From contig NZ_JAUYUS010000071.1 in the NCBI RefSeq assembly GCF_030694575.1, forward strand, positions 1-53,429: a stretch of 53,429 nt of DNA, read 5' to 3'. Position 1 is the stretch's first letter. Each line of letters begins with the position of its first letter. This document shows positions 7,963 through 28,049 of the stretch, piece by piece. Under the pieces are notes generated by a model that saw only the letters and a program-made list of their open reading frames with translations, ran no database searches and was not told the origin of the DNA. The position numbers and the translations under genes were made by a program. The DNA comes from Parvibaculum sp. Lineage in GTDB: Bacteria > Pseudomonadota > Alphaproteobacteria > Parvibaculales > Parvibaculaceae.

Positions 7963-8093
7963 TTCGCCCCGCCTTCGTCCCTTGGGAAAAACTCGCGGCA
8001 GGCCAGCGGGACGAACGCCAGGCTTTTCGGGTGCCCCCTAGCCGCGAGCCCACATAAGGACACAACCAGTAATCGCAAAGCAATACGACAACG

Positions 8094-8170
8094 CGGGAAC
8101 TTCCGGGAACATGCGGGAACTTAAATGATTTAACGAATACTTGCGGGACTGTTGATGAACAATCGGGATA
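8094..8170 (+). promoter_or_regulatory. Phased CGGGAAC direct-repeat array, copy 1
   Basis: CGGGAAC occurs exactly at 8094, 8104 and 8114, so the repeats are 10 bp apart. Degenerate copies CGGGACT (8144) and CGGGATA (8164) stay in the same 10-bp register. The array is upstream of the leftward operon. The same motif with the same period recurs at 21683 and 28023. In-phase direct repeats suggest a protein that binds cooperatively along one DNA face; an excisionase/Cox-like protein is the inferred ligand. Confidence 0.7.
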
Positions 8171-8362
8171 GTAAGTATTTTCAGGAGGTGGCGATGAAAT
8201 CCCGACCGTTACCGCGCGGGCCGTTGAAATCATTGGGGAATTTGGAAGGAGTGACGGTCACAAAAAAAGCGTTACCCCGACCGTTACCGCCTAAGTCATT
8301 GATTTTGTTGTCTTATATAATATAAGTAACGGAGTAACGGTAATATATATATAGACGTTACA

Positions 8363-8403
8363 CATGCGCGCGCTCATGTGCGCGCTCATGCGCATGCGCA
8401 CGC
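8363..8403. repeat. Alternating purine-pyrimidine tract with 12-bp repeat
   Basis: GCGCGCTCATG is repeated at 8368 and 8380, and the tract around it (CATGCGCGCG... GCGCATGCGCACGC) is almost wholly alternating purine/pyrimidine. It follows directly on the AT-rich stretch inside the CGTTACC cluster. Such DNA melts or adopts left-handed form under superhelical stress, which would fit an origin; this role is inferred. Confidence 0.5.
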
Positions 8404-8528
8404 AATAGGGTGGTGTGTTCCGGAAAACCGTTACTTCCGTTACCAATTACGAATAGCTTAATAGTTTGAATGACTTACGCAGTAACGGACCCCGTTACCG
8501 AGGCCGTTACCGCGTAACTCTTCCGAAA

Positions 8529-8541
8529 TGTACCAAGTACA
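8529..8541. promoter_or_regulatory. TGTAC-N3-GTACA palindrome, site 1
   Basis: TGTAC-CAA-GTACA, with flanking A/T extending the dyad by one base on each side. The same 13-bp pattern occurs at 8803, 21639 and 22419. It is probably an operator for a phage HTH repressor. Confidence 0.55.
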
Positions 8542-8802
8542 TCATGGGCTTGCGATATTCAGTCAACGGATTAACAGTCGATTGTTACCGTTGATTTTCT
8601 TCGCCGTTACCGTTTTTGCTCCAAATCTGAAGCACTTCATGGTTCGCGCCTGCCCGCGGGAAGCGCCGCCTGGCCGCGCGCGAGGTGGAACGGGGCGGGG
8701 CTTGGGTTGGACGCCGTACAAGCCGGCGGTGTGGCGGCAGAGACACTAAATGCCAATATATCGAGAAAGTATCGCTTCGGAGACGTTTTCCGATTGCGGA
8801 CT

Positions 8803-8815
8803 TGTACCGAGTACA
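8803..8815. promoter_or_regulatory. TGTAC-N3-GTACA palindrome, site 2
   Basis: TGTAC-CGA-GTACA, extended to TTGTAC...GTACAA. It lies about 110 bp upstream of the first gene of the rightward operon (8927) and is well placed to control its promoter. Confidence 0.6.
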
Positions 8816-8856
8816 ATACAGTTTGATTCAAGGGCGGACGAACGGTAGCCCCCAGA

Positions 8857-8903
8857 TGCCCGGCGGGGACGCTCCCCCACCCATCCCAGAGCCCCGCCGG
8901 GCA
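8857..8903 (+). promoter_or_regulatory. Leader hairpin before the rightward operon
   Basis: TGCCCGGCGGGG (8857-8868) pairs perfectly with CCCCGCCGGGCA (8892-8903) across a 23-nt loop. The stem ends 12 nt before the GGAGGAGG ribosome site of the 8927 gene. It is not followed by a T-run, so RNA stability or translation control is more likely than termination. Confidence 0.45.
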
Positions 8904-8926
8904 CATTCCTTGGAGGAGGAATTCAA

Positions 8927-9370
8927 ATGAAAATCTGCCACATCATCATCGAACGGCACACGCTGGTTAAGGGAGCCAAGGTTCCCAACACCCTGATCGG
9001 AGCCATACCCGAAAACGAGGTCGACGCCGAGATCAAGGCGTTCATCAAGAATGCCTGCTGCGAGACCGTCCCCTTCAAGCGGGCGCGGGTTTTCGACACA
9101 GCGGCTTTTGAGGCCGATCACAACACCGAGCCCTTTCTGATCGTCACGCCTGAGACAATCAAGCAGGTGGCGAAGATCAGGGCCGAAGTCGAAGCCGGCA
9201 AGGCGCTCGCCAAGAAGGGTTTCGAAACGAACCACGGTGAAGGCTCTTGGGACCGGTTGACGGAATACCGGAAGGCCAACAACGCCAAGGCGCTGGACAG
9301 CATCTGCGTCGCGCTCGCCGCCGACGCCGCGAAGGCCGCCACACAACTGGTTCTGGAGGGCATCGAATGA
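8927..9370 (+). CDS. Hypothetical protein, first gene of rightward operon
   Basis: A 147-aa protein I do not recognise. It has a beta-rich N-terminal half (KICHIIIERHTLV) and an Ala/Glu-rich helical C-terminal half. The ribosome site GGAGGAGGAATTC is among the strongest in the prophage, and a long leader with a stable hairpin precedes it, so high or regulated expression is expected. Its stop overlaps the next start (ATGA). Confidence 0.6.
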   Translation: MKICHIIIERHTLVKGAKVPNTLIGAIPENEVDAEIKAFIKNACCETVPFKRARVFDTAAFEADHNTEPFLIVTPETIKQVAKIRAEVEAGKALAKKGFETNHGEGSWDRLTEYRKANNAKALDSICVALAADAAKAATQLVLEGIE

Positions 9371-9819
9371 GCGCCCTCAGCGAGGCCGTCGCACCTCTCT
9401 TGAAGAGGATGCCCGAAGACACGAGGCGCAAACTCATTGGTGCCGCCTATTCCGAAATTGTCGGCTACGACCCCCTCGCGGACGACGTCACCATGTCCCT
9501 TGAAGAAGGCGAAGAAAGCCTTCTGGGGATAATCGAGGAATACGTTGCCCAAGGGGCGAAAGACGAGGTTTTCCGTGGGGTCGCCAGAGCTGTGACGGTG
9601 GTCGACGAAAGCCCCAACCGCAACATTGCCGGCATGGCGCTCGCTTCCGCCCTCGTCAATCGGGAACTCGCAGACGTCAAGACGAGCGTCTACCAGAGGA
9701 TCATGCGCGACCTCGTGAGGGCCGGCATCGACATCACCAAGATCACCGTCATGAAAATCGCCAATGACGACACCATCGAATACAGCCTCTCCGACCTGGT
9801 CGACGTTATGACCGACTAA
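9367..9819 (+). CDS. Hypothetical protein
   Basis: A 150-aa acidic protein of unknown function, mainly helical by composition, with a segment GMALASALVNRELADVKTSVY in the middle. The start at 9367 is fixed by the ATGA overlap with the upstream gene; an in-frame extension further upstream lies wholly inside that gene and has unlikely composition. It is probably co-produced with the 8927 product. Two hairpins follow its stop. Confidence 0.6.
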   Translation: MSALSEAVAPLLKRMPEDTRRKLIGAAYSEIVGYDPLADDVTMSLEEGEESLLGIIEEYVAQGAKDEVFRGVARAVTVVDESPNRNIAGMALASALVNRELADVKTSVYQRIMRDLVRAGIDITKITVMKIANDDTIEYSLSDLVDVMTD

Positions 9820-9863
9820 CCCCGAATTCCGGGAGGGTTCCTCCTCCCCCTTCCCGGATGCCT

Positions 9864-9905
9864 GCCCCGGCGACACACCCCCCTCCTCCCCCGTGTCGCC
9901 GGGGC
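9864..9905 (+). terminator. Stable hairpin between 9819 and 9930 genes
   Basis: GCCCCGGCGACAC (9864-9876) pairs perfectly with GTGTCGCCGGGGC (9893-9905), loop 16 nt, followed only by TCATTT. A weaker 7-bp stem (9828-9834 with 9852-9858) precedes it. It may be an attenuator or partial terminator separating the first two genes from the rest of the operon; the T-run is too short for a confident call. Confidence 0.45.
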
Positions 9906-9929
9906 TCATTTAACCGAAGGATGCAAGCC

Positions 9930-10253
9930 GTGTTTGACAGCAATCCGCTCGACAGACCTCAGATGACGGAGACCCAGGCGCGGACCAAGCGTTTCGCGGC
10001 GCTCCGGTCACGAGCGAAGGCATGCTTCATGGTCGACCACCGTTCCAAGGCACATCCCGAGAGTCACACGCAATTCAGCTCATATGGCGACTTCCGAGAC
10101 AGTTACGTCGCCGAACTTATGGAGGCCCGCCGCGTGCTCTATCCGACGCGCCGCGAGGAACTTCAGAACCAGAAGCGGATCATGGAGATGTCGGACGCGC
10201 CGATCATGAACAACCCGCAGTATGCCAGAATCCTGAAGGAGCTTGGTGAATGA
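9930..10253 (+). CDS. Hypothetical protein
   Basis: A 107-aa basic, mostly helical protein of unknown function with a conserved-looking end (MNNPQYARILKELGE). Two starts are possible: ATG at 9921, where the GAAGG lies too close, and GTG at 9930, where GAAGG is 9 nt away; the second is preferred. Its stop overlaps the next gene (ATGA). Confidence 0.5.
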   Translation: MFDSNPLDRPQMTETQARTKRFAALRSRAKACFMVDHRSKAHPESHTQFSSYGDFRDSYVAELMEARRVLYPTRREELQNQKRIMEMSDAPIMNNPQYARILKELGE

Positions 10254-10621
10254 GCCGTCTCACAGAACACAATCAGATGCCAGAGCCGGAGAAATTCGGC
10301 GTCCGCCGCGCGCGCATCGCCGCCGCAAGGACAGCAGCCGAGCTGCGCGTTCTCGCCAGGGAATTTGGCTACGATGAATCGTGGATTCGCAATCTGATGC
10401 TCGCCCGCGAGAGGAAGAAGCGCAGCAGCGGAAAGAACCCGACCCCGCGATCCTTTCGCCTGGGGCCAGGCGACGTGAACCAGATCATCCGCAGTCACTT
10501 CCGGATCAAGCATCGGCTCCCGATGAAGGACTTCCACGTTCACGTCCAGCGGACGGGGATCGGAAATGCCTATGTCGAGATCAAGCGCCGTCCGATGAAG
10601 AAGAACGGGATAGTCAAATGA
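10250..10621 (+). CDS. Hypothetical basic protein
   Basis: A 123-aa, strongly basic protein. Residues 20-55 (RIAAARTAAELRVLAREFGYDESWIRNLM, split by a turn) could form a simple helix-turn-helix, so DNA binding is conceivable. The rest alternates basic and hydrophobic residues. It is linked by ATGA overlaps to both neighbours. No family recognised. Confidence 0.5.
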   Translation: MSRLTEHNQMPEPEKFGVRRARIAAARTAAELRVLAREFGYDESWIRNLMLARERKKRSSGKNPTPRSFRLGPGDVNQIIRSHFRIKHRLPMKDFHVHVQRTGIGNAYVEIKRRPMKKNGIVK

Positions 10622-11121
10622 GCATGTCCGAAACGAGAGACGGTGTTGGTGGGCAGGAAGTGATGGAATATCGCATCCCCCTCACCGAGAGGGAATCCAT
10701 CTTCGAGGTGGACACATTCCGCTGGGCAATCGGTCGAGACCAGCATAATTGGCTGACACCGACACAGCCGCGCCAGCGCCCGCGCCGCCGCTTCATAGAC
10801 GTCGTCGGCGCCTTCGAGCAGAGGATATTCCGCCTGGTGCTCGCGCCTCTCCTTTTCGCCGGCGCGCTCGCCGTTCGATGGTTCGGCCGCAGCGCTCGCC
10901 AGAAGCGCCGCGTCGAGCGCGAGCGCACGCACATCTTCTACAATTCCATCGCGCTTCAGGCTTCGTTCGGCGGGTATACGACCCAGCCGGAGCCGCCGAC
11001 GACGAAGGGGGGATATGCGGCCGTGACACAGGCGCATGACGCGGCTCTCCTGTGCAAGACTCTTCGGTCCACGATGGCGATTGGGGACAAGCCGACGAAA
11101 AAGAGCTGGTGGAGAAACTGA
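10618..11121 (+). CDS. Small putative membrane protein
   Basis: A 167-aa protein with one clear hydrophobic helix (FRLVLAPLLFAGALAVRWFG, about residues 75-94) between basic segments, so a single-pass inner-membrane protein is likely. The remainder is polar and ends in a Lys-rich tail (GDKPTKKSWWRN). The ATG at 10618 overlaps the previous stop (ATGA), which fixes the start; the same frame extends further upstream but inside another gene. Function unknown. Confidence 0.5.
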   Translation: MSMSETRDGVGGQEVMEYRIPLTERESIFEVDTFRWAIGRDQHNWLTPTQPRQRPRRRFIDVVGAFEQRIFRLVLAPLLFAGALAVRWFGRSARQKRRVERERTHIFYNSIALQASFGGYTTQPEPPTTKGGYAAVTQAHDAALLCKTLRSTMAIGDKPTKKSWWRN

Positions 11122-11303
11122 TGCCGGACATCACCCTTTGCACCAACTTCATGTGCCTGAAGCGTCACGATTGCCTGAGGTTCCGCGCCAAAGCAGCGGA
11201 GCACCAGTCCTATCAGACCTTCTATCCGGAAGACGACGGCACGTGCGAGTCGTTCCTCTCCATTCCGGAAGGCGCCAACCTTGCGTTGGAGACCACATCA
11301 TGA
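11121..11303 (+). CDS. Small cysteine-containing protein
   Basis: A 60-aa protein with four cysteines arranged as C7, C12, C18 and C39 (LCTNFMCLKRHDCLRFRA, then DGTCESF). This spacing suggests a small metal-binding or disulfide fold, seen in many short phage proteins of unknown role. The start at 11121 forms a TGATG with the upstream stop and has GGTGGAG upstream. Confidence 0.5.
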   Translation: MPDITLCTNFMCLKRHDCLRFRAKAAEHQSYQTFYPEDDGTCESFLSIPEGANLALETTS

Positions 11304-11581
11304 CCCGCCGTATGACGCCGGCGGAGCGTGGGGAATACCAGCAGGTCAGGGGCGCCGCCACCGAGCGCGCGAAGAAAGCGTTGAAGCCTGGCGACCGCAT
11401 CTCGCGCCGCATGTGCGGAGGTGCGAGTGGCACGTTCAGGTTTACCCATTGGGAGGGTGGTTGGGCTTGCGGAAAGACAGTCTCCGACTGCAGCGCCATG
11501 AACATCTACCGCGTGAACGGCAAGGACGTCGATTTCTCAAACGGCGGCGTCGACCACATCATCAAGGCGGTTAACGCATGA
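11300..11581 (+). CDS. Hypothetical protein
   Basis: A 93-aa protein of unknown function. The first half is basic and helical (ERGEYQQVRGAATERAKKAL); the second has two Gly- and Trp-rich strands (GTFRFTHWEGGWACGKT) and ends close to DHIIKAVN. ATGA overlaps link it to the genes on both sides. Confidence 0.5.
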   Translation: MTRRMTPAERGEYQQVRGAATERAKKALKPGDRISRRMCGGASGTFRFTHWEGGWACGKTVSDCSAMNIYRVNGKDVDFSNGGVDHIIKAVNA

Positions 11582-11997
11582 CCCTGACGACGCACGCCCT
11601 CTCTATCCGCCAGCCTTGGGCATGGGCGATCATCCACGCCGGCAAGGACGTCGAGAACCGCGACTGGCGGCCGTCGAATCCCGGATTGAAGTTCCGCGGG
11701 CCGGTGATGATCCACGCGTCGAAGGGCATGACGCGAGATGAATATGAAGGCTGCCTTCACGCATGCCACCAAATTAGCTACACGCACCCATTCCCGCCCG
11801 GACTCGCCATGCCGGCTTTCGACGATCTTCTCCGGGGCGGCATCGTCGGCACGGCAAAAATCGTCGACGTGGTGACGAAATCAGACTCGCCTTGGTTCTT
11901 TGGCCCCTGCGGTCTCATCCTCGAAGACGTCCGTCCCATCCCCTTCATCCCCTGCAAAGGAGCCTTGGGCTTCTTCAAACCGGAACTCCCCGCATGA
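11578..11997 (+). CDS. ASCH-domain protein
   Basis: The 139-aa protein starts with SIRQPWAWAIIHAGKDVENR, the signature of ASCH domains (PUA-like beta barrels that bind RNA or modified nucleotides), and keeps GPVMIHASKG, GGIVGTAKIVDVV and a final GALGFFK. Members include RNA-binding regulators and, in phages, proteins near nucleotide-modification genes. The exact ligand cannot be read from sequence. It is part of the tightly coupled rightward operon, just before a DNA adenine methylase. Confidence 0.75.
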   Translation: MTLTTHALSIRQPWAWAIIHAGKDVENRDWRPSNPGLKFRGPVMIHASKGMTRDEYEGCLHACHQISYTHPFPPGLAMPAFDDLLRGGIVGTAKIVDVVTKSDSPWFFGPCGLILEDVRPIPFIPCKGALGFFKPELPA

Positions 11998-12209
11998 CCG
12001 ATGCCCCACATCCCGAAGCCATAAAGGCGGCCGCGTCGATCATGGCGCGGCTACGCACCCGGCTCGAACTGCACAAGATCCTCGGGCCTGAGAAGCTGGA
12101 GGATGGAACACCGTGGATTGCGCCGGACGTTCAGGTGGTCATCGAGCACGACATGGCGATCACGATCGACGCCGCTATGAGGGAGGCAGAACATGAATCC
12201 GCCCCTTAA
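11994..12209 (+). CDS. Hypothetical small protein
   Basis: A 71-aa acidic helical protein (IKAAASIMARLRTRLELHKI) of unknown function. The start at 11994 is set by ATGA overlap with the ASCH gene, and its end overlaps the next start by 17 bp. Composition and coupling support it as real; no family recognised. Confidence 0.5.
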   Translation: MTDAPHPEAIKAAASIMARLRTRLELHKILGPEKLEDGTPWIAPDVQVVIEHDMAITIDAAMREAEHESAP

Positions 12210-12378
12210 GCTGAACACTCACGGGGGATCGTCCGTTATCGCGCACGGAACCGACGTCGTTTTCGAGTTCTGGATTGAGGGGCGAGAGCCGGCTGGAGAC
12301 ACGATCAGAATCTCCATGACGCCGGGCGCCGCACTCGGCATCATCGCGCTCGCAGCCCGCGCGACGGTGGCAGCTTGA
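12193..12378 (+). CDS. Hypothetical small protein
   Basis: A 61-aa protein, mainly beta by composition (DVVFEFWIEGREP, TIRISMT) with an Ala-rich C-terminal helix. A GGGAGG ribosome site lies just upstream of its ATG. Function unknown. Confidence 0.45.
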   Translation: MNPPLKLNTHGGSSVIAHGTDVVFEFWIEGREPAGDTIRISMTPGAALGIIALAARATVAA

Positions 12379-12394
12379 AACAGGCAGTTCAGCC

Positions 12395-13123
12395 ATGACC
12401 GGCGACCTCGGCATGGGCGGCCACCAGTCAGCCAACGCCTACACCGACGAATGGCTTACGCCACCCGAGATCGTCACGGCGCTGGGCCACTTCGACCTTG
12501 ACCCATGCTCGCCGATCGTCCGGCCCTGGCCGACCGTCGGCCGGCATTACACGGTCGAGGACAACGGCCTGATGCTTCCGTGGTTCGGCCGCGTCTGGTT
12601 GAACCCGCCCTATGGCAGCCAGACCGGCCGCTGGCTCGCGCGGCTCGTCACGCATGGCACTGGCACGGCGATGATCTTCGCGCGCACCGATACGGCGTTC
12701 TTCTTCAAGCACGTCTTCGAGGAAGCCTCAGCCCTCCTGTTCCTTCGCGGCCGCGTCCATTTCCACCATGTCGACGGACGGCTAGCGAAGGACAATTGCG
12801 GCGCCCCCTCCGTCCTAGTGGCCTATGGCGCCGGCGACGCTGAACGCCTGGCCTGCAGTGGCATGGACGGCAAATTCGTTCCCCTCCGCCTACCCCGTTT
12901 CTTCGCCATCACGGCCGCCGCCGCGGACCAGTCATGGTGCCAGGCGATCCTTGAAGTGCTCAACGGCCGCCCCGGCCCGGTGGCACTCGACGAACTGTAC
13001 AGCGCCATGTCCACCCACCCGAAGTCGGCCAAAAATCGTCACTGGCGCGAGAAGATACGCCAGACCCTTCAGCAGGGCCCCTTCCGTCGCGTCCGTAACG
13101 GAGTCTGGGAGGCAGCCGCGTAA
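12395..13123 (+). CDS. Phage DNA N6-adenine methyltransferase (Dam-type)
   Basis: The 242-aa protein has the hallmarks of the phage DNA N-6-adenine methyltransferase family: YTDEWLTPPEIVTALG near the start, FDLDPC, and the catalytic VWLNPPYG (NPPY). It would transfer a methyl group from S-adenosylmethionine to adenine in DNA, protecting phage DNA from host restriction or tuning gene control. Residues after 170 form an extra helical domain ending in a wing-like RRVRNGVWEA, perhaps a DNA-binding winged helix. It is the last gene of the coupled small-gene operon. Confidence 0.85.
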   Translation: MTGDLGMGGHQSANAYTDEWLTPPEIVTALGHFDLDPCSPIVRPWPTVGRHYTVEDNGLMLPWFGRVWLNPPYGSQTGRWLARLVTHGTGTAMIFARTDTAFFFKHVFEEASALLFLRGRVHFHHVDGRLAKDNCGAPSVLVAYGAGDAERLACSGMDGKFVPLRLPRFFAITAAAADQSWCQAILEVLNGRPGPVALDELYSAMSTHPKSAKNRHWREKIRQTLQQGPFRRVRNGVWEAAA

Positions 13124-13130
13124 ATTGTCT

Positions 13131-13220
13131 GGACGCTGAGCGTAGGACTTTGCTAGGACTGTGCCGCTGTTGCTGGGATGCAGCCACTAGAGGGGCCGAA
13201 ATGTTGAAATATCAGCGTCC
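13131..13220. promoter_or_regulatory. Separated inverted repeat upstream of XRE gene
   Basis: GGACGCTGA (13131-13139) and TCAGCGTCC (13212-13220) are exact complements 72 bp apart, and TAGGACT is directly repeated at 13143 and 13154. The pair sits in the 133-bp gap before the XRE gene and could be operator half-sites for autoregulation; this is inference. Confidence 0.35.
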
Positions 13221-13256
13221 GGATTCGTCTCAGTATTGTTGCATAGCGAGTAATTA

Positions 13257-13547
13257 ATGTCAGATGCCAAGAAGTTGCGCCGGTTTCGGGAACACCTGGG
13301 CCTGAAGCAGGATCAGGCCGCCGAGTTTCTGGGCGTTTCCGTCTATACCATCTCCTCCATAGAGGCCGACCGACGGCCTCTATCACCACCACAAGACGCC
13401 TATATTGACGCCATCCTCAACGATGAACTGTCAACCCACGACACGCCCTACATCATGCTCGGGAAGGCGATCACCGCCCTTGAGCTGGGAGACAGGGAAA
13501 CTGCCATAAAAATGTGCCAGTGCGCGCTCATCGTTCTCAACAGATAG
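13257..13547 (+). CDS. XRE-family HTH regulator
   Basis: A 96-aa protein whose first 60 residues are a Cro/CI-type helix-turn-helix: KLRRFREHLGLKQDQAAEFL then GVSVYTISSIEADRRPLS. The remainder is a helical tail that could serve for dimerisation. It stands alone between the rightward operon and the convergent primase-helicase gene, with its own 133-bp upstream gap. It may be a lysogeny repressor or an antirepressor-type regulator; its operator is not certain. Confidence 0.75.
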   Translation: MSDAKKLRRFREHLGLKQDQAAEFLGVSVYTISSIEADRRPLSPPQDAYIDAILNDELSTHDTPYIMLGKAITALELGDRETAIKMCQCALIVLNR

Positions 13548-16385: not shown

Positions 16386-16419
16386 TTATCCCCTTCCGGC
16401 CGAAGCCAGAAATCTCGCC

Positions 16420-21388: not shown

Positions 21389-21397
21389 CGGCGCGGC

Positions 21398-21613
21398 CTA
21401 TTCGGCCGGCGCGCGATGCTTGTCGACTGCCGCCTGAAGGCGCTCGACGGTATCGACCGTGGTCGGCCTGACCTTCAGGTATCGGTGCGGCGTCGCCCGA
21501 GAAACCCCGGCCTCCTCGCATATCTGGCTTATGGAAACGCCGAGCGCCTTGGCATCCGCGTGCAGTGCAGCAATGGCATCATCGAAGGCGATGCCGAAAC
21601 TCTTACTCGTCAT
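21398..21613 (-). CDS. Small HTH regulator
   Basis: A 71-aa protein with a helix-turn-helix (LGVSISQICEEAGVSRATPH) followed by RYLKVRPTTVDTVERLQAAV, the layout of short phage repressors with a C-terminal dimer helix. The start at 21613 is chosen because an in-frame ATG at 21667 would place the TGTAC-N3-GTACA palindrome (21639-21651) inside the gene. With this start the palindrome is 26 bp upstream, where an autoregulatory operator is expected. It heads the leftward block that includes the cytosine methylase and primase-helicase. Confidence 0.7.
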   Translation of the reverse strand: MTSKSFGIAFDDAIAALHADAKALGVSISQICEEAGVSRATPHRYLKVRPTTVDTVERLQAAVDKHRAPAE

Positions 21614-21638
21614 TTTTGATTGGTCCCGTTTCGTGACT

Positions 21639-21651
21639 TGTACACTGTACA
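21639..21651. promoter_or_regulatory. TGTAC-N3-GTACA palindrome, site 3
   Basis: TGTAC-ACT-GTACA with a longer imperfect dyad around it (GTGAC ... GTCAC, 21634-21656). It is immediately upstream of the HTH regulator gene and is the best operator candidate for autoregulation. Confidence 0.65.
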
Positions 21652-21682
21652 TGTCACGTCTCAGCAATGTCTCAAGGAGACG

Positions 21683-21709
21683 CGGGAATATCCGGGAACT
21701 TCAGTGAAC
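21683..21709 (+). promoter_or_regulatory. Phased CGGGAAC direct-repeat array, copy 2
   Basis: CGGGAAT (21683) and CGGGAAC (21693) are 10 bp apart, with a degenerate AGTGAAC in register at 21703. The array lies between the divergent HTH regulator and RecE-like genes, so it could control both promoters. Confidence 0.6.
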
Positions 21710-21850
21710 AAGAATGATCGTCTCAATCTCAAAAAGCATTGGCGTTAAAACGACGGATTAAAGAATCATTTCGATTTCCAATGGATCAAATTGAGCGCAT
21801 CTTTAATGCACGCGACACGCCAAAACCATCTGACACCTGCGCGAGTACAA

Positions 21851-22696
21851 ATGGACCATCAGAGCATCGCCCCCGGCTTCTATCCGGAAATGACGAATGA
21901 CGAGTACCATGCAGCGCCGGGCATTTCGAAATCCCACCTCGACCAGATCGACATCACACCGGCCCACTACTTCGCGCGCTACCTCGATCCGAGCCGCGAG
22001 GAAGAGGAGAAGACGCCAGCCCTTATTCTTGGGGATGCAATCCACAAGGCGGTTCTCGAACCAGACCTCTTCGAATCGCGTTTCGTCGCTCGCCCGAAGG
22101 GAATTGATGGTCGAACAAACGCCGGAAAAGCCCAATTGGCAGCACTCTTTGCCGACGCCGGCGACCGCACAGTGCTCGGCACTGACGATTATAAAACGGC
22201 CATTGCAGTCAGGGATTCCGTCCATCGGCATCCACTCGCATCGGGCCTGTTTCGGGATGGACTTGCCGAAGCGACGTTCTTTGCGAAGGACGCCAGGACG
22301 GGCGCACTGGTGAAATGCAAGCCGGATTTCTACCGGTCTCAGTTCTCGATGATCGTCGATTTGAAGACGACGGAGAGCGCGTCACTGGAAAACTTCGCGC
22401 GATCCGCAGGTAGGTACTTGTACGACGTACAAGCCGCGTGGTATCCTGACGTCATCGAGTCGCTTTACGGCGAAGTCATCGAAACCTTCGTTTTTGTGGC
22501 CGTCGAGAAATCCCCGCCCTACGCCGTCGGCGTCTACTATCTGGAACCCGAAGACGTGCAGATCGGAAGAGAAATCGCGCACCGCAACCTCGACAAGATT
22601 CTCAAGTGCCGTGAGGCAAACGTCTGGCCGGACTATGCCGGCATGGCAGGTGCGCAACCGCTTCGAATTCCTGGCTACATGAGACGCACTACGTAA
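21851..22696 (+). CDS. RecE-like exonuclease (PD-(D/E)XK)
   Basis: The 281-aa protein resembles the exonuclease VIII/RecE C-terminal domain used by phages for single-strand annealing recombination. Visible elements: YHAAPGISKSHLDQI, the helix GDAIHKAVLEP, CKPDFYR with the first acidic residue, IVDLKTTESA with the D-x-K pair, and YDVQAAWYPD. It would degrade one strand of duplex DNA ends to expose 3' tails. The start is uncertain: ATG at 21851 best fits family length, but ATG 21806 and TTG 21791 are in frame. The ATPase and candidate annealing protein follow. Confidence 0.8.
   Translation: MDHQSIAPGFYPEMTNDEYHAAPGISKSHLDQIDITPAHYFARYLDPSREEEEKTPALILGDAIHKAVLEPDLFESRFVARPKGIDGRTNAGKAQLAALFADAGDRTVLGTDDYKTAIAVRDSVHRHPLASGLFRDGLAEATFFAKDARTGALVKCKPDFYRSQFSMIVDLKTTESASLENFARSAGRYLYDVQAAWYPDVIESLYGEVIETFVFVAVEKSPPYAVGVYYLEPEDVQIGREIAHRNLDKILKCREANVWPDYAGMAGAQPLRIPGYMRRTT
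22419..22431. promoter_or_regulatory. TGTAC-N3-GTACA palindrome, site 4 (intragenic)
   Basis: TGTAC-GAC-GTACA within CTTGTAC...GTACAAG, inside the RecE-like gene. It may be a chance match or a secondary operator; the other three copies are intergenic. Confidence 0.35.
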
Positions 22697-22729
22697 CCGG
22701 GCGGCGAAGCCCGAACAGGACGACTGAGA

Positions 22730-24097
22730 ATGCATATCAACAAGATCAGGGTTTCCCAGATACTCGGAATCGAACACCTCGAATTCGACGCTGGCAAATT
22801 CAACGAGATTTCTGGCGAGAACGGAGTCGGCAAGACATCGTTTCTGGAGGCGATCAAGAGCGCCGTTCGCGGCGGCGACGATGCGACATTGCTGCGCCGC
22901 GGTGCCGAGCGCGGCGAAATCGTTCTGGTACTCGACGACAACACCGAGATACGCCGCCGCATCACGCAGAAGGCGACCACCACCACGGTCGAGCGAAATG
23001 GTGTGAAGGTCCAACGGCCGGCGGAGGTCATAAAGGGCCTCACCGACATGTTGAGCGTCAATCCCGTCGACTTCCTTCGCGCGCCCAAGAAGCTTCGGGT
23101 GAATGCGTTGCTCGAAAGCCTGCCAATGACCGCCGATGCCGAGCGCATCGCCAAGATCGTCGGCTATGAAGTGAAACTTGAAGACGGCGTACACGCGCTC
23201 GAACAGATTTCCGCACTGCACAAATCCATCTTCGATGATCGAACCGGCACAAACCGGGCGGTTCGCGAGAAGGAATCGACGATCAACCAGCTCTCCGCCA
23301 CCCTTCCAGACGGCGAGACCGTTGACACACCCGCTGACAAAAGCGGGCTCCTCGCCGCGCTCAATGTGATCGACGGGAAAAAGGACGCCGAACTGGAGCG
23401 TATCGCGACCAAGCTTGACACGTTCAGGAAGGGCCGCGACGACGGTATCGCCGCGCTCAAGGCCGTTTCCGACAAGAAGGTCGACGACTGGCAGGCGGAG
23501 ATAGCCGCCCTTCAGCAGAAAATCGCGGACGAGAAGATCGCCCATGCCGCCGCCGTCGCGGCCGAGAACGAAAAATTCGCCGATATAGAGCGCAAGGCCG
23601 GCCAGCAGCGGGAAATAACGCTGAAGGACCATGCCGAGGAGCGCGAGGACACGGCCGCCAAGATCAAGTCGATCGAAGAGCAGGCGGCGCAGGCAACCAA
23701 ACATCAACAGACACGCGATACCATCAAGTCCATGCGCGCGGCCTCGGATTTGCTTCGAGAAGATGCGGAGCGCCAGACGGCGGCCCTCGAATCCTTGGAG
23801 GCGTACAAGTCCGAGTTGCTTTCCGCCCTGCCGATCGACGGCCTTTCCGTTGTGGATGGTGAGATTTTCCGCCACGAAATCCCGTTCGACCGCCTCAATT
23901 CGGGTCAGCAGGTGGAGATAGCGGTGGAGATCGCAAAGCTTCGCGCCGGCCCGCTCGGGATTATCTGCGTCGACGGCATCGAACTTCTCGATGCGAAACA
24001 CTTCGAGAGCTTCAAGGAACAAGCCCTCGCATCCGACCTCCAGCTTTTCGTGGCGCGGGTTGGCGATAGCGATATGGAACTCATCGCGGAGGCCTGA
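22730..24097 (+). CDS. SbcC/RecF-like ABC ATPase
   Basis: The 455-aa protein has an SMC/Rad50-type split ATPase: Walker A GENGVGKTS (29-37) at the N-terminus, a charged helical middle (about 170-335) that is probably coiled coil, and a C-terminal half with signature LNSGQQVEIAVEIA and Walker B GIICVDGIELLD. It is half the length of SbcC, so a short-armed DNA end-processing ATPase is likely. The gene lies 33 bp after the RecE-like exonuclease, and a joint role in end resection or recombination is inferred. Confidence 0.8.
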   Translation: MHINKIRVSQILGIEHLEFDAGKFNEISGENGVGKTSFLEAIKSAVRGGDDATLLRRGAERGEIVLVLDDNTEIRRRITQKATTTTVERNGVKVQRPAEVIKGLTDMLSVNPVDFLRAPKKLRVNALLESLPMTADAERIAKIVGYEVKLEDGVHALEQISALHKSIFDDRTGTNRAVREKESTINQLSATLPDGETVDTPADKSGLLAALNVIDGKKDAELERIATKLDTFRKGRDDGIAALKAVSDKKVDDWQAEIAALQQKIADEKIAHAAAVAAENEKFADIERKAGQQREITLKDHAEEREDTAAKIKSIEEQAAQATKHQQTRDTIKSMRAASDLLREDAERQTAALESLEAYKSELLSALPIDGLSVVDGEIFRHEIPFDRLNSGQQVEIAVEIAKLRAGPLGIICVDGIELLDAKHFESFKEQALASDLQLFVARVGDSDMELIAEA

Positions 24098-24123
24098 GCC
24101 GCCGCCAATCACGGGATAGGGAA

Positions 24124-25233
24124 ATGTCCGAAGAAACAGCAGTTGCCATCCGCGCCAGCACGGCGATGGCGAACACGGTGCCGGCAGACCAGTACGGCGG
24201 AGCACCCATGTTCTCCCGCATGCCGTCCGGCGATATGACCGCCGTGAACCAGGGCGCGGTCCAGATCGAGATGGAACGCGCCATCGCCGAGGCACAGGGG
24301 AAGTTGATCCTGGCAAAGAAATTCCCGCGCAATATGCACCAGTGCCGGGCTGAATTTCTCGAAGCCTGTGCCAATCTGGAATTCGCGGAAGAGGCCTTCT
24401 ACACGGTGCCAAATCGCGGCAGCGGGCCCTCGATCCGTTTTGCGGAAGAGGTGGCCCGCTGTTACGGGAACTTCGAGTACGGCCATCGCGAGCTTTCGCG
24501 AAGCGCAGGCAAGTCCGAGGTCGAGGTGTTTGCCTGGGACATGGAAAACAACAACCACAGCAAACGCCAGATCACCGTGCTCCACGTTCTGGACACGAAG
24601 AACGGCCCGAGAAAGCTGGTCGATCAGGCGGACATCGACAACCGCATCGCCAACGTCGCCTCGAAGCAGATGCGCGGTCGCATTCTGGCGCTGGTGCCAA
24701 AGGCCCTCGTTGCCGAAGGAAAGGCGATCGCCAAGAAGACGCTCGCCAATGGCGGCGCGGAAAAGACCATCGGCCAGCGGGTTGCGCTGATGGTCACCGC
24801 CTTCGGCAAGTTCGGCGTCACCGTCGATCACATCGAGGCGTATTTCAAAGGGACGCCGCTCGACCAAATGACGGCGGACGATTTGGCGGAGATGACCGGC
24901 GTCCATGCGGCCTTGAAGGAGGGCGCCAAGGTCAAAGACTATTTCGGCGATGACGCCGTCGAGGAGAAGAAGGATCCCGTCGCCGCAGCGATCGAAAAGT
25001 CGGCCGAGGGCGCGCCGACGGAGAACGCGGCAACCGCGAAGCCGGCTGCCAAGGCAGAAACGAAGCCCGCTGCGAAACCTGCCGCAAAACCAGCAGCGAA
25101 GCCCGAGCCGAAGCCTGCAACGGCTGCGCCCGCCGCGGCTCCCGAGGAGCCTGAAGCCGAGGAGAACCTTGAGCCCGAGCCCGCCGCGCCGGTCAATGCG
25201 GAAGCCGCTCCCGCCAAAGAAGCCATATTCTGA
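24124..25233 (+). CDS. Candidate recombination or annealing protein, unknown family
   Basis: A 369-aa protein I do not assign to a known family by motif. Residues 1-270 look globular (RFAEEVARCYGNFEYGHREL, VFAWDMENNN). The last 80 residues are a low-complexity KPAAK/KPE-rich then acidic tail, similar in character to disordered tails of single-strand DNA binding proteins. Position directly after a RecE-like exonuclease and an SbcC-like ATPase suggests the single-strand annealing partner (RecT-equivalent); this is inference from context. Its stop and the next start form TGATG. Confidence 0.5.
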   Translation: MSEETAVAIRASTAMANTVPADQYGGAPMFSRMPSGDMTAVNQGAVQIEMERAIAEAQGKLILAKKFPRNMHQCRAEFLEACANLEFAEEAFYTVPNRGSGPSIRFAEEVARCYGNFEYGHRELSRSAGKSEVEVFAWDMENNNHSKRQITVLHVLDTKNGPRKLVDQADIDNRIANVASKQMRGRILALVPKALVAEGKAIAKKTLANGGAEKTIGQRVALMVTAFGKFGVTVDHIEAYFKGTPLDQMTADDLAEMTGVHAALKEGAKVKDYFGDDAVEEKKDPVAAAIEKSAEGAPTENAATAKPAAKAETKPAAKPAAKPAAKPEPKPATAAPAAAPEEPEAEENLEPEPAAPVNAEAAPAKEAIF

Positions 25234-25490
25234 TGGCAGTCATTTCTGTGTCGGACACCACGTCCGAGGGGGAGCATCGGAATGACGAGAGGCTAACGCC
25301 TGACGAATTGGTCGCGAGATGGAAGCATCGCGTGAACACGAAAACGCTCGCGAACTGGCGCTCCTTGGGGTCGGGGCCACGGTTCACGCGCATCGGAAAC
25401 CGTATCCTTTATTCGCTTTCGGCCGTGATGGACTACGAGGAGCGGCGCGATTACGGCTCGACAAAGGACTACGGGAAAGAGAAGAATTAG
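25233..25490 (+). CDS. Excisionase/AlpA-like winged-helix protein
   Basis: An 85-aa protein with a MerR-like winged helix: LTPDELVARWKH, then VNTKTLANWRSLGSGPRF, then RIGNRILYSLSAVMDYEE. This is the usual form of phage excisionases, AlpA regulators and Cox-like proteins, which bind short direct repeats and direct integrase toward excision. No basic N-terminal tail is seen. The phased CGGGAAC arrays, one of them next to the integrase, make a Cox-like double role (excision and promoter control) plausible. Confidence 0.7.
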   Translation: MAVISVSDTTSEGEHRNDERLTPDELVARWKHRVNTKTLANWRSLGSGPRFTRIGNRILYSLSAVMDYEERRDYGSTKDYGKEKN

Positions 25491-25516
25491 AGGGTATTGT
25501 TCATCGGAGGACGGAG

Positions 25517-25762
25517 ATGACCTTTTCCACCATAGCCGATCTAGAATCCGTCGTCGTCGGCGCGGTTTGCGTCGAGTTGCCGACGGCGACGGTCCACATT
25601 GTCCTCCCGTGTCGGGATAACGACTCCTACCGCGCGGCTTGCGCCGACGTTGAATATGGGCGGCCAGTTGGGATTCTCGTCAAGACGTTTCCGGGCCACC
25701 GAGAGATTGTCGCGGACTTGGACAAGCGTATCGCCGACGCTCGGGCGAGGCTCGCAGCATGA
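25517..25762 (+). CDS. Hypothetical protein
   Basis: An 81-aa protein of mixed alpha/beta composition (VGAVCVELPTATVHIVL, then a helical KRIADARARLA end). A GGAGGACGGAG ribosome site precedes the ATG at 25517, which is therefore preferred to longer in-frame readings. Function unknown; ATGA overlap with the next gene. Confidence 0.5.
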   Translation: MTFSTIADLESVVVGAVCVELPTATVHIVLPCRDNDSYRAACADVEYGRPVGILVKTFPGHREIVADLDKRIADARARLAA

Positions 25763-26115
25763 GATTTCCCAAGACACCAGTAATCGTCGACGTCGACGTA
25801 GCCCCCAGGCTGCCTCCGGTAACGGACGCACAGTTCGCCGAGGCGCTCAAGTTCCTGACCGACGGCTTTGTCGGAATGATGTACACCGATGACACAATGC
25901 GCCTCATCGAGCGAAGAATTGATGCGCTCGTCTCATCTTTCGACCGCTCAAGGGAATCTGATATGGCCTTCGCCACCAGGCAGAGCCTTGATGATGAATT
26001 TGGTCTCGACATATGGGTTGGCAGACGCGACGATCCGGAAATGCCGCATTGGGCGAATGCTAAGATCACCCCGCCGCCGGATGGACCCATCACCATACGA
26101 GGTGATCAGGAATGA
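25759..26115 (+). CDS. Hypothetical protein
   Basis: A 118-aa acidic protein of unknown function. The first 20 residues are hydrophobic and Pro-rich (TPVIVDVDVAPRLPPV), followed by helices (AQFAEALKFL, MRLIERRIDALVSSF) and a Pro-rich end. ATGA overlaps bind it to both neighbours. Confidence 0.45.
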   Translation: MRFPKTPVIVDVDVAPRLPPVTDAQFAEALKFLTDGFVGMMYTDDTMRLIERRIDALVSSFDRSRESDMAFATRQSLDDEFGLDIWVGRRDDPEMPHWANAKITPPPDGPITIRGDQE

Positions 26116-26366
26116 GCCGTCGCAGAATCATAAAACGCGCGAAGATCAGGCGCAGCCGAAGGCTGAGATTATGGGCGTTGTTTCGTAAGTTCGAAGGCCT
26201 GCATTCGTATCAGCAGATGGAGATTCGGTGGGCGATTTATCCGTCCACCATCTCGTTCGAGGCGAGCGGTCCAATGACGCCGGAATTGACCGCCTTTGTG
26301 ACAAAAATGCAGCTCGGTCACCAGGGGAGGATCGACACCCTCACCCAGCCGCCGCCGGCAGCTTGA
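26112..26366 (+). CDS. Hypothetical small basic protein
   Basis: An 84-aa protein with a strongly basic N-terminus (RRRIIKRAKIRRSRRLRL) and a beta-like middle. It overlaps the convergent integrase by 26 bp, so one of the two ends may be read differently in the cell. Function unknown. Confidence 0.4.
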   Translation: MSRRRIIKRAKIRRSRRLRLWALFRKFEGLHSYQQMEIRWAIYPSTISFEASGPMTPELTAFVTKMQLGHQGRIDTLTQPPPAA

Positions 26367-27636
26367 CGACGTCGGTATCAATCTCGCCGGCGATGATCTT
26401 GTCCATATAGGCAGCCCACACGTCCATCGCGGCGCGCTTCTCCGGCAGGTAGTCGTACCGGTCATAGTGCCGGCTTGAAATGTCGCCCTTGGCGGCATGG
26501 TTCTGCAGCCGATCGCGCATGTCCTTCGGAATACCAGCCTGCCCGGCCAGTGTCTTCCATGTGCGGCGGATGTCGCGCGGCGTGAACTTCTCAGCCCCCG
26601 TCGCCTCGACATATGCCTTGGTGCGCTGGTGCAACAGCGTCGCGGGAGCCGCTTCCGATAGTCTTTCGACCGCGGGAAAGTACAGCCCCTTCTTGTTTGG
26701 CGTCATCGAGTCGAGGAGGTTGAACGCCAGGTCGGTAAGCGGAACGGCGTGCGGCGCTCCGTTTTTGGTTTCGGTCCAGAACAACATCCGTTGCCGGCGA
26801 TCGAACACGTCCGCCGAGATGCGCAGAATCTCCTCGCCTCGCTGACCGAGCGCGAGCTGGAGCATCAAAGGCTCGTTAGCCCGGCTATTCGCCCTCGTGT
26901 GATTCAGCCATTCCCAGAAATCACGGAACTGGCGAGGGCTCAGGAACCGGTTGCTGGTCCGTTTCGCGGCCGGGTCCGATGCGATAGGCAAAACCGGGTT
27001 CGCCTTGATGCCCCAGCGCGTCCCCACATGCTCGCCGGTGTAGCTGTGCTCGGATTTCATTCCCCACGCGAAGGCGGCCGAGACCCATGAGCGGATGATC
27101 GACGCCATGACCACGCTCCCTCGGCCGTGAACCTCGGCGAGATGACCAACGATGTCCTGAGGCCCGATTTCGGACGCCGGCCGCTGCCTTCCGATGGTAT
27201 CTGCCACCGGCGTTGCTTTGGGCGACGTCAGCAATATCCGATCGGCGATCCCCGCCGAACGCTTTCCTTCCGAGCGCAGGCTGGCGACGTAAGCCGTGAA
27301 CAGATCCTCAACGGTTCCATAGGCGTGCTTGTGGCTTGCCCGTGAGAGCCGTCCATCCGGCGACGCGCCAATGGATATGGCCGGCGCGAAATCCTCCCTG
27401 AAGGCCTTTCTGGCCTCGGCCAGACCCATCGTCGGGTAAGAGCCGATCTTTGTCATGCGGCGCTTGCCGATCCGGTAGTAGACGGCATACCACTCGGCAA
27501 CGACCTTGTTCTTGAGCGCCCGAACCTGGAGCGAGAGTCGGCCCGAGCCGCGGTCTCCATCGTCCTTCAGTTCTATCGTCTTGCCGGTGTGTGGCGCCGA
27601 CCGAACTGCCGCCTTGATTTGGGATTCAGTAATCAT
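26341..27636 (-). CDS. Tyrosine-type phage integrase
   Basis: The 431-aa protein is a tyrosine recombinase of the P4/DUF4102 style, with an N-terminal arm-binding region (residues 1-90; KDDGDRGSGRLSLQVRALKN and SYPTMGLAEARKAF) and a catalytic domain. Catalytic positions: Arg in LGQRGEEIL, the box II region TPRDIRRTW where the usual His is Arg, NHAAKGD with the second His, and the nucleophile Tyr in HYDRYDY. It would integrate and excise the prophage. It is transcribed away from the right junction, behind a short upstream gene, about 390 bp from the junction. Confidence 0.9.
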   Translation of the reverse strand: MITESQIKAAVRSAPHTGKTIELKDDGDRGSGRLSLQVRALKNKVVAEWYAVYYRIGKRRMTKIGSYPTMGLAEARKAFREDFAPAISIGASPDGRLSRASHKHAYGTVEDLFTAYVASLRSEGKRSAGIADRILLTSPKATPVADTIGRQRPASEIGPQDIVGHLAEVHGRGSVVMASIIRSWVSAAFAWGMKSEHSYTGEHVGTRWGIKANPVLPIASDPAAKRTSNRFLSPRQFRDFWEWLNHTRANSRANEPLMLQLALGQRGEEILRISADVFDRRQRMLFWTETKNGAPHAVPLTDLAFNLLDSMTPNKKGLYFPAVERLSEAAPATLLHQRTKAYVEATGAEKFTPRDIRRTWKTLAGQAGIPKDMRDRLQNHAAKGDISSRHYDRYDYLPEKRAAMDVWAAYMDKIIAGEIDTDVVKLPAAAG

Positions 27637-27896
27637 TGGGCATGCCCCACCGGAAGAACGACCTGCACCGAACCTGAGAACTCAGTGCCAGCGCGCCCGA
27701 GACCAATCAACCTCCCCCGCATTGAGATGACTTGGACGGGGTCCGATTCCGACACCCACATTCCAAGAAGGCGATGAATTTCGGCCTCGTCTTCTTTTAT
27801 TTTTTCCTCGGTGGCGGCGTCGAGCCCACTGAGAAGAATTCCGGTGTCGCACAAAACTTTTGTTGGAAGCCGTTTGAATCGACCGTAAACCTGCAT
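27633..27896 (-). CDS. Hypothetical small protein upstream of integrase
   Basis: An 87-aa protein of unknown function: RLPTKVLCDTGILLSGLDAA, a charged helix (ATEEKIKEDEAEIHRLLGMW) and a beta-rich end. Its stop overlaps the integrase start (ATGA), so both are translated from one message. A link to integrase control is suggested only by position. Confidence 0.5.
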   Translation of the reverse strand: MQVYGRFKRLPTKVLCDTGILLSGLDAATEEKIKEDEAEIHRLLGMWVSESDPVQVISMRGRLIGLGRAGTEFSGSVQVVLPVGHAQ

Positions 27897-27929
27897 CGTT
27901 TCGTCCTCGTGCTGGCGGTAACGCTGGTG

Positions 27930-27945
27930 GTTTCCGCGTGGAAAC
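27930..27945. promoter_or_regulatory. Palindrome upstream of integrase operon
   Basis: GTTTCC-GCGT-GGAAAC is a 6-bp perfect dyad 34 bp upstream of the first integrase-operon start. An inverted CGTTACCG copy lies beside it at 27916-27923. It may be an operator for integrase expression. Confidence 0.35.
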
Positions 27946-28022
27946 GTCAGCCGTTTGTTCTCCCGATAATACCAAGACGCCTCAGAAAAGATGCATATAA
28001 CGCAAGCACTTAACTGATTTTC

Positions 28023-28049
28023 CGGGAACTATCGGGAACAAGCGGGAAC
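28023..28049 (+). promoter_or_regulatory. Phased CGGGAAC direct-repeat array, copy 3
   Basis: CGGGAAC occurs exactly at 28023, 28033 and 28043, again on a 10-bp period, ending 12 bp before the presumed right prophage junction and in the space between integrase operon and junction. This is where arm-type or excisionase binding sites lie in temperate phages. Confidence 0.7.

Follow-up and report, generated by a model that had tools for sequence, protein, structure and literature searches.

Three arrays of direct repeats in a Parvibaculum prophage are very probably operators of a single small phage protein, an RdfS/BldC-like winged-helix excisionase-regulator that would coat them head to tail and work in the manner of Apl and Cox. 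The protein is encoded at 25233..25490 (the 25233 protein), and the arrays, named A, B and C, lie in a 53,429-nucleotide stretch of DNA, the whole of which we call the window (Table 1). By sequence comparison we found, besides the arrays, an attachment anatomy around array C, conservation of the step, unit and places of the arrays, an association with relatives of the protein, and covariation between one base of the unit and one residue of the protein. We infer binding, oligomerization, a role in excision and either repression or activation by the 25233 protein.

Table 1 Features of the window around the phased arrays
Feature	Coordinates	Strand	Remarks
ParB-like protein (phrog_1033), C-terminal DnaA-type HTH	4614..5822	-	in run behind array A
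First ORF of leftward run behind array A	7396..7962	-	
Array A	8092..8171	+	units 8092, 8102, 8112, 8122, then 8142, 8152, 8162
71-aa HTH regulator	21398..21613	-	divergent from exonuclease operon
Palindrome CGTGACTTGTACA-C-TGTACATGTCACG	21632..21658	.	92% complementary over 13
Array B	21681..21720	+	units 21681 CGGGAAT, 21691 CGGGAAC, 21701 AGTGAAC, 21711 AATGATC
PD-(D/E)XK exonuclease-like gene (DUF3799)	21791..22696	+	first gene of operon behind array B
SbcC-like AAA ATPase	22730..24097	+	operon member
Operon gene, phrog_3657	24124..25233	+	PHROG match
85-aa winged-helix protein, proposed ligand	25233..25490	+	excisionase-regulator candidate
Tyrosine integrase, N-terminal arm-binding domain	26341..27636	-	PF13356, PF00589, phrog_1
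87-aa ORF between array C and integrase	27633..27896	-	without family match
Putative integrase arm-type pair GCTGGCGGTAAC / GCTGGTGGTTT	27910..27935	+	12-bp step
Array C	28021..28050	+	three exact CGGGAAC units, 10-bp step, oriented toward attachment core
Likely attachment core CATGGCCTAT	28061..28070	+	identical 10 bp at opposite prophage end

Phased arrays at three places in the prophage

The heptamer CGGGAAC stands exactly where it had been reported at 8094/8104/8114 and 28023/28033/28043, and the degenerate copies reported at 8144 and 8164 are likewise present. At the middle site, where two exact copies followed by a degenerate one had been claimed, 21693 is exact, 21683 reads CGGGAAT, with one mismatch, and 21703 reads AGTGAAC, with two. 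A motif model trained on other loci (below) places further units in register, at 8122 and 8152 in array A and at 21711 in array B; position 8132 of array A is a register slot without a fitting unit.

The heptamer count alone is ordinary and shows no significant excess (the window has 16 where 11.0 are expected, and 11 of 100 shuffles gave at least as many), whereas the phasing is not ordinary. Loose 10-bp triples, with at most 5 mismatches to CGGGAAC summed over three copies, occur in the window only at arrays A, B and C, all on the + strand, with none on the - strand. The pair CGGGAACN3CGGGAAC is found four times in the whole 3.8-Mb genome, always at arrays A and C, and its reversed control pattern is absent from the genome; among 40 genomes of the order, this one included, two others have one match each. 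Spacers between units vary within arrays A–C. The three arrays are real. Elsewhere, the triple pattern was found in 12 viral-contig stretches and 82 genome contigs, many of them plain tandem repeats or other GGGAAC clusters; tblastn with 23 window proteins gave no match in the 12 viral loci, and window proteins gave only three weak matches in 84 genome loci. Counts of heptamer pairs per phage were rejected as too blunt a measure.

Array A precedes a leftward same-strand gene run (7962-3481), 130 bp upstream of its first ORF and 2.3 kb from its ParB-like gene. Array B is located in the interval that separates the HTH gene from the exonuclease operon, as had been described. Scans of three stretches, at arrays A, B and C, brought up no sigma-70 consensus promoter, so 'promoter' is used there on the strength of the gene arrangement.

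Attachment site and arms

The likely attachment core marks the right end of the prophage, within a 4HBT thioesterase gene, and its second copy, on contig C62 (locus L148, 13968-13977), marks the other end. Array C stops 10 bp short of the core, and its description as att-proximal is thus correct. It sits between the core and the putative arm-type pair, which is a different repeat; a near copy of this pair lies on the left arm (L148 13858-13883) and is identical at 21 of 26 positions, against a maximum of 18 in 60 shuffles. The left arm carries a fourth array (motif-model score 22.6), and the arrays on both arms are oriented toward the core. On sequence evidence, direct repeats one helix turn apart stand on the attachment arms as elements distinct from the putative arm-type sites.

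Conservation of the arrays in other phages

The motif model was trained solely on integrase-upstream DNA from 48 other loci with 25233 relatives, the window being excluded, and found a GTGA/GGGA array at a 10-bp step. The family core of the unit is GTGA, with GGGAAC a local variant in this prophage. The three top model sites in the window were arrays A (23.4), B (22.3) and C (20.4), followed by a continuation of array A. With the window excluded, 10-bp triples with at most 3 mismatches occurred upstream of the exonuclease in 16 of 53 regions and upstream of the integrase in 20 of 48 (means of 8 shuffles, 1.1 and 2.1), and none of nine other steps exceeded 4/53 and 9/48, respectively. When unsupervised EM was run on the integrase-upstream set, step 10 yielded 262 log units and six other steps 57–118; in this comparison the promoter-side set of 56 took in one window region and the integrase-side set none. 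The final model reached 282 log units, against 38.5–42.3 in six shuffled sets.

Among exonuclease-upstream regions, which lay outside training, 24 of 53 reached a score of 12 in the forward and 16 of 53 in the reverse direction (shuffles, 0.2), arrays occurring there in both orientations. In leave-one-out runs, each started from the full-set motif, 40 of the 48 integrase-upstream regions reached 12 and 8 fell below. In the training regions themselves, a site of at least 12 read away from the integrase in 44/48. Across 78 nonredundant loci other than the window, sites of at least 16 had a density of 1.11 per kb upstream of the integrase (the training zone), 0.48 upstream of the exonuclease, 0.40 upstream of the helicase and 0.019 elsewhere, and steps of 8, 9, 11 and 12 gave no sites upstream of the exonuclease or helicase in the same loci. 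One of the 12 exonuclease queries behind these densities, that of the window, began one base out of frame, and the remaining queries made up for it. ParB-like genes were present in 22/97 loci, 6 of which (5 distinct) have a model site of at least 14 within 1.5 kb upstream. The original prediction had named conservation in related prophages as its check, and it withstood this: both the 10-bp period and the integrase/attachment and recombination-operon locations are kept in tens of other loci with a 25233 relative.

Thirteen of 16 integrase-anchored loci with a 25233 relative reached 12, but 10 share contigs with loci already used. Of seven test loci with no more than a quarter of their 8-mers in common with any training region, three passed (L270, L281 and Mica), this overlap having been computed for five, with Alexa and ZX1 counted without it. 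The other four, L266 (one sequence with L267), L269, Alexa and ZX1, carry a 25233 relative with no array reaching 12, the ZX1 stretch being only 288 bases long. Locus L260 has 0.95 of its 8-mers in common with training locus L186, and half of those of HeidiAbel and PT1 recur in MQ-4. In the closest relative, L178, whose integrase-upstream DNA is cut off, the divergent-region site scores only 9.9, yet it contains an exact CGGGAAC. Two of 24 loci with weaker relatives in family and class genomes reached 12 (L157, with TLRNWR, 16.5; L158, 12.6); these relatives mostly have TLERWR or TLSQWR instead of TLANWR.

The arrays go with the protein. Beside related integrases with no 25233 relative nearby, 0 of 16 regions reached 12: 0/11 on viral contigs, where a relative may lie outside some contigs because they are cut near the integrase, and 0/5 in named phages, two of which, PG1 and pAN, nearly duplicate each other (0.85). 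Two of 29 loci were left out, the start of the integrase being off the contig. Phages with no detected integrase, or a remnant only, retain a 25233 relative and the exonuclease-upstream array.

The 25233 protein and its recognition helix

Single-protein scans of viral contigs with the 25233 protein and with the integrase gave no relatives, and these were retrieved with alignments instead. The search pattern for 25233 relatives, [TV][GRK]TLANWR, yielded 80 viral loci, in which the invariance of TLANWR and the restriction to Gly, Arg or Lys before it are therefore partly made by the pattern. A profile search of solved structures returned, at E<=1, only RdfS (PDB 8dgl, the best solved relative, E 8.7e-7) and terminase small subunits, with no Cox. 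RdfS also came first by fold (rmsd 1.6 across 53 columns), and the modelled fold matches the BldC winged helix at ranks 3, 6 and 8; the model is of moderate confidence (pLDDT 77), and its best Foldseek E-value, that of RdfS, is weak (9e-3). Matches to PHROG 66 (weak, E 0.0016) and phrog_2528 (of unknown function, E 0.0009) were also obtained, and the relatives in KA2-1 and HeidiAbel_Bas97 bear the PHROG 66 name, excisionase and transcriptional regulator.

The proposed parallel with the Cox boxes of P2-like phages holds as a functional analogy with Apl and Cox; by sequence profile and fold, the nearest solved relatives are of RdfS/BldC type and not P2 Cox. Since no Cox was among the profile matches and Apl was outside the comparison, we describe the 25233 protein as working like Cox and Apl and do not file it as a member of their family.

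Lys37 of the 25233 protein, immediately before TLANWR of the recognition helix, corresponds to Lys26 of BldC. The residue at this place covaries with position 4 of the array unit, Lys going with G (0.86; a class of 5 nonredundant loci), Arg with T (0.72) and Gly with T (0.96). The permutation p value was 5e-5, the floor of 20,000 permutations, and 3e-4 without the window, and among 52 columns this one ranked highest (z 16.5; the runner-up had 5.1). Three Lys loci, L178, L214 and L235, were outside the count because neither tested region reached 12; their best sites are GGGA-like but weak (9.9, 10.1 and 13.2). In a tree built on few columns Lys changed 7 times, compared with 7.7 times in shuffles, and only one change is demanded by the well-supported branches, a single origin of Lys being compatible with the tree. 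The covariation points to the 25233 protein as the best candidate ligand, as originally predicted. In BldC, Lys26 lies near guanines whose replacement by thymine had little effect on binding (available part of PMC5859096), so a residue at this place need not dictate the base.

Alternative explanations

Array C lies at the attachment site of an integrase with an arm-binding domain, and arm-type-like pairs of relatives are likewise short direct repeats, but it is highly improbable that the arrays are arm-type sites of the integrase: the different repeat pair, at a 12-bp step and on both arms, fits that role, arrays A (8092) and B (21681) are 20 and 6 kb away, the 16 related integrases without a 25233 relative nearby have no arrays, and phages with no detected integrase or a remnant keep the exonuclease-upstream ones. 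Operators of the divergent HTH regulator, whose gene adjoins array B, or of the ParB/DnaA_C protein, in the run downstream of array A, are also improbable, although both proteins have HTH domains. The HTH gene has its own palindrome, which is perhaps the operator of that regulator rather than of the 25233 protein; relatives of the regulator were found in 6 phage records against 56 for the 25233 protein; ParB-like genes are present in only a minority of loci; and the base at array position 4 varies with a residue of the 25233 relatives, the family for which the covariation was computed.

That the decamers arose by plain tandem duplication or chance, with no regulatory role, is scarcely credible. 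The ordinary heptamer count and the 82 genome contigs with the triple pattern, many with identical spacers, speak for it, but spacers differ inside arrays A–C, the phased copies in this genome all fall at arrays A and C, and other phages have kept both the step and the places. A less remote, though still unlikely, reading is that the 25233 protein binds the arrays as a transcription regulator only and is not the excisionase of this prophage, as relatives that keep the protein and exonuclease-upstream site with no detected integrase might suggest; against this, sites in most integrase-upstream training regions read away from the integrase, the array on each of the two attachment arms is directed at the core, and RdfS is an excisionase (available part of PMC11963761).

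Discussion

In the excisionase-regulator mechanism that we favour, every 10-bp unit, with its core G[G/T]GA (CGGGAAC in this prophage), would be occupied by one 25233 monomer. The monomers would all lie on the same side of the double helix and link up head to tail to form a bent nucleoprotein filament, an arrangement suggested by the fold and the 10-bp step. A filament on both attachment arms would lead to integrase-mediated excision, one on array B would control the operon that encodes the 25233 protein itself, giving feedback, and one on array A would control the leftward run with the ParB-like gene.

Beyond this prophage, we consider it slightly better than an even bet that the arrays belong to a widespread, undescribed phage regulon in which RdfS-like TLANWR proteins read phased G[G/T]GA arrays. 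These would stand on attachment arms, at the exonuclease/recombination operon and, in some phages, at a ParB-like operon, and the residue before TLANWR would act as a one-residue switch, Lys reading GGGA, Arg mostly GTGA, and Gly GTGA or GTTA. Phages that keep protein and operator with no detected integrase would, on this regulon reading, have turned an excisionase into a stand-alone early regulator. If true, the phased unit and one-residue code would make targets of the 25233 family predictable from sequence, reveal how phages link excision, recombination and partition-like genes through a single small protein, and show how relatives may retain a regulator after loss of integration.

Comparison with known systems

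PHROG 66, a weak match, is a library entry without a binding motif. BldC of Streptomyces (PDB 6ama, 6amk) has a similar fold and binds direct repeats head to tail, its recognition-helix Lys26 and Arg30 touching bases (PMC5859096); unlike the 25233 protein, it is a chromosomal developmental regulator of 9-bp repeats with an AT-rich part, and the available portion of that source mentions no role in excision. Apl of phage 186 and Cox of P2-like phages are each excisionase and regulator at once, and their direct repeats, spaced by roughly one turn of the helix, are present at att and at early promoters (PMC7498355, in part); in the prophage, too, one kind of repeat stands at att and in the control region of a phage operon. 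Apl sites, however, are 6 bp long at 10-11 bp and lie between convergent promoters, unlike those here, and the gene of the protein there opens the early lytic operon in the portion available, whereas the 25233 gene follows the exonuclease, the ATPase and a third gene.

The best match in both sequence profile and fold is RdfS of ICEMlSymR7A, an excisionase and regulator that oligomerizes and binds both at its own promoter and at the attachment site close to int; no consensus binding motif was found for RdfS, and it has an extra N-terminal helix, unlike the 25233 protein (accessible part of PMC11963761). In contrast to RdfS, the unit here is clear and strictly phased, the 25233 gene is part of a phage recombination operon, and the run with the ParB-like gene is preceded by another array.

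Results

The original prediction placed CGGGAAC at an exact 10-bp step in three arrays (A, B and C; see table). Both outer triples are present and exact in the window sequence; in array B the second copy is exact, while the first, predicted as such, reads CGGGAAT. By itself the heptamer is uninformative (16 copies in the window, 11.0 expected). The phased form is rare: CGGGAACN3CGGGAAC occurs four times in the 3.8-Mb own genome (135 contigs), every time at array A or C, and the reversed control pattern has no occurrence there. In unrelated genomes (L037, L042, L052, L066, L069 and L093), CGGGAAC decamers also occur as simple tandem repeats whose spacers are identical. The window spans the entire contig C135, so the left portion of the prophage lies on other contigs. 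The GTTACC cluster adjoining array A is iteron-like and perhaps a replication origin, and the palindrome before the HTH gene perhaps the operator of that gene itself.

Repeats and associated features in the window and comparison loci (score, step-10 model)
Feature	Position	Score	Remark
ParB-like domain (phrog_1033) gene	4614-5822		fused to DnaA-type C-terminal HTH (PF08299)
Array A (+)	8094/8104/8114	23.4	CGGGAAC
GTTACC cluster	8208-8611		8/9 + strand copies of window in this 400-bp stretch
Palindrome	21632-21658		near-perfect, directly before HTH gene
Array B (+)	21683/21693/21703	22.3	CGGGAAT/CGGGAAC/AGTGAAC
Repeat pair, 12-bp step	27910-27935
Array C (+)	28023/28033/28043	20.4	CGGGAAC
Likely attachment core	28061-28070		CATGGCCTAT
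4HBT thioesterase gene, second part	28062-28466		first part in L148 (C62)
Other-arm array	L148 13813-13842 = C62 58812-58841	22.6
Best site, Lys-type L178	6414	9.9	divergent region; contains CGGGAAC
Best site, Lys-type L235	9957	13.2	immediately upstream of the gene for the protein; contains CCGGGAAGTTCCGGGAACT
Phased sites, L157	1470 and 1796	16.5 and 12.0	GTGA-type; bacterial-genome relative, TLRNWR for TLANWR

Relatives of the proposed ligand, the 85-residue winged-helix protein encoded at 25233-25490 (the 25233 protein), were found in 56 phage records and 128 viral contig stretches, the best 80 of the 128 being kept. In 13 of the annotated phages examined (Dolphis, Touem01, PHB04, ST4, KA2-1, ECO1230-10, PPpW-3, MQ-4, Persinger, FoX1, Mano, Arya and PY223), its gene follows an exonuclease gene encoded by the same strand; Pavtok has no exonuclease gene annotated, and the stretch in PBb001 and PBb002 lacks annotation. 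Among 15 sequences collected without a motif pattern, ten residues never vary, including T38, L39, N41, W42 and R43; TLANWR is also invariant in a 46-row alignment, where the search pattern itself demanded it. Of the proteins with a solved structure, RdfS (8dgl, E 8.7e-7) is the closest by profile, and the predicted fold (pLDDT 77) matches RdfS, BldC, GIsul2 excisionase and Pukovnik Xis, as well as other winged-helix proteins.

Arrays of this type recur upstream of exonuclease and integrase genes in many loci with relatives of the 25233 protein, as the prediction required. The comparison set comprised 97 loci (the window, 16 phage loci and 80 viral contigs), giving 53 exonuclease and 48 integrase nonredundant upstream regions with the window excluded. 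Step-10 triples with at most three mismatches occurred in 16/53 exonuclease (1.1 in shuffles) and 20/48 integrase regions (2.1 in shuffles); all other steps from 7 to 16 reached at most 4/53 and 9/48. Exact pairs at 11 and at 12 bp, each in 14/48 integrase regions, fit arm-type sites. Unsupervised EM preferred step 10 in both sets, with the unit ccGTGAt in 95% of integrase-set sequences, and the motif model reached 282 log units against 38.5–42.3 in six shuffled sets. A step-10 model trained on the 48 integrase-upstream regions, window left out, ranked arrays A, B and C as its three best places in the window, followed by a continuation of array A (14.0) and a fifth site at 11.9; 20 shuffles of the window gave a single site that reached 20.

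Scores of at least 12 were found in 40/48 held-out integrase-upstream regions and, outside training, in 24/53 exonuclease-upstream regions forward and 16/53 reverse (shuffles 0.2). The 97 loci, window included, held 127 sites of at least 16: 58 upstream of integrase, 31 of exonuclease and 8 of helicase, with 30 elsewhere. Across 78 nonredundant loci without the window, such sites numbered 22 in 46 kb before exonuclease genes and 43 in 39 kb before integrase genes, the training zone, compared with 24 in 1,280 kb elsewhere; the two densities are about 25-fold and about 58-fold higher, respectively. When the units were spaced at 8, 9, 11 or 12 bp, these loci had no site upstream of exonuclease or helicase, and integrase-upstream DNA had no more than one. 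Array A lies upstream of the run of genes that includes the ParB-like one. MQ-4, KA2-1, Arya, ECOO78 and L217 likewise have a site 84–971 bp upstream of a ParB-like gene, a hint of a third shared target.

Eight same-genus loci carry a longer 4HBT thioesterase gene, of which the window has the second part only; the missing first part is on contig C62 of the own genome, at the other prophage end. With its gene split by the prophage, the host may be without this thioesterase unless the prophage excises. The likely attachment core is common to both prophage ends. The 12-bp-step pair is identical to the other arm at 21/26 bases (maximum 18 in 60 shuffles) and, by eye, resembles pairs that PPpW-3, MQ-4 and Dolphis carry around their attachment region and that we take for arm-type sites. 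Array C is flanked by this pair and the core, a position in which other phages are known to have excisionase sites. The other-arm array, scored by the integrase-trained model, is directed at the core and lies outside the putative arm-type pair.

No array of at least 12 accompanied related integrases without a 25233-type protein nearby, in 0/11 viral contigs (highest score 8.7 in the orientation tested and 9.1 in the opposite one) and 0/5 named phages (best 6.9). With the protein, 13/16 contigs pass 12, 11 of these overlapping or copying training loci, as do 3/5 named phages, two of them half-similar to MQ-4; among loci not closely related to training, 3/7 pass. A PPpW-3-related integrase was not found in FoX1, ECO1230-10 or ECOO78, and Arya has a 73-residue remnant only; all four retain the exonuclease-upstream site (15.1 to 22.4). 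The Bordetella phages PBb001 and PBb002 have no match to ten integrases across the whole record, and their sites are weaker (10.9); that of PY223 scores 12.1.

Covariation provides the strongest argument from sequence that the arrays are read by the 25233 protein rather than by a neighbour. In 47 nonredundant loci, with G and T scored equally, the base at unit position 4 (GGGA or GTGA) tracks the residue preceding TLANWR: 0.86 G with Lys (5 loci, 21 units), 0.72 T and 0.25 G with Arg (30 loci, 132 units), and 0.96 T with Gly (12 loci, 51 units). A permutation test gave p = 5e-5, the lowest value it could return (3e-4 without the window), and this residue is the best of 52 protein columns for that base (z 16.5, next 5.1). 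On a tree built with the covarying column masked, Lys requires 7 changes against a shuffled mean of 7.7, so its distribution does not suggest a single inherited block; resolution of the tree is poor, however, and only one Lys change is forced by well-supported branches. Aligned by residue numbers, this residue, Lys37 in the 25233 protein, is taken to occupy the place of BldC Lys26. In BldC, Lys26 lies near guanines, and replacing these with thymine had little effect (PMC5859096).

Discussion

The 25233 protein would most likely bind the arrays cooperatively, head to tail, bending the attachment DNA to bring about excision, and would also most likely control phage operons, its own among them. 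The working principle is already known; new here are the motif and the residue code, together with the extra target and retention of the system where an integrase is undetected. No title or abstract opening on the motif or residue code was found in the literature searched, most subscription journals being outside its scope. RdfS binds its own promoter and the attachment site and oligomerises, with no consensus motif described (PMC11963761), and the phage 186 protein Apl binds direct repeats spaced by one turn, at att as well as between early promoters (PMC7498355). The mechanism proposed for the 25233 protein is most likely the same as theirs.
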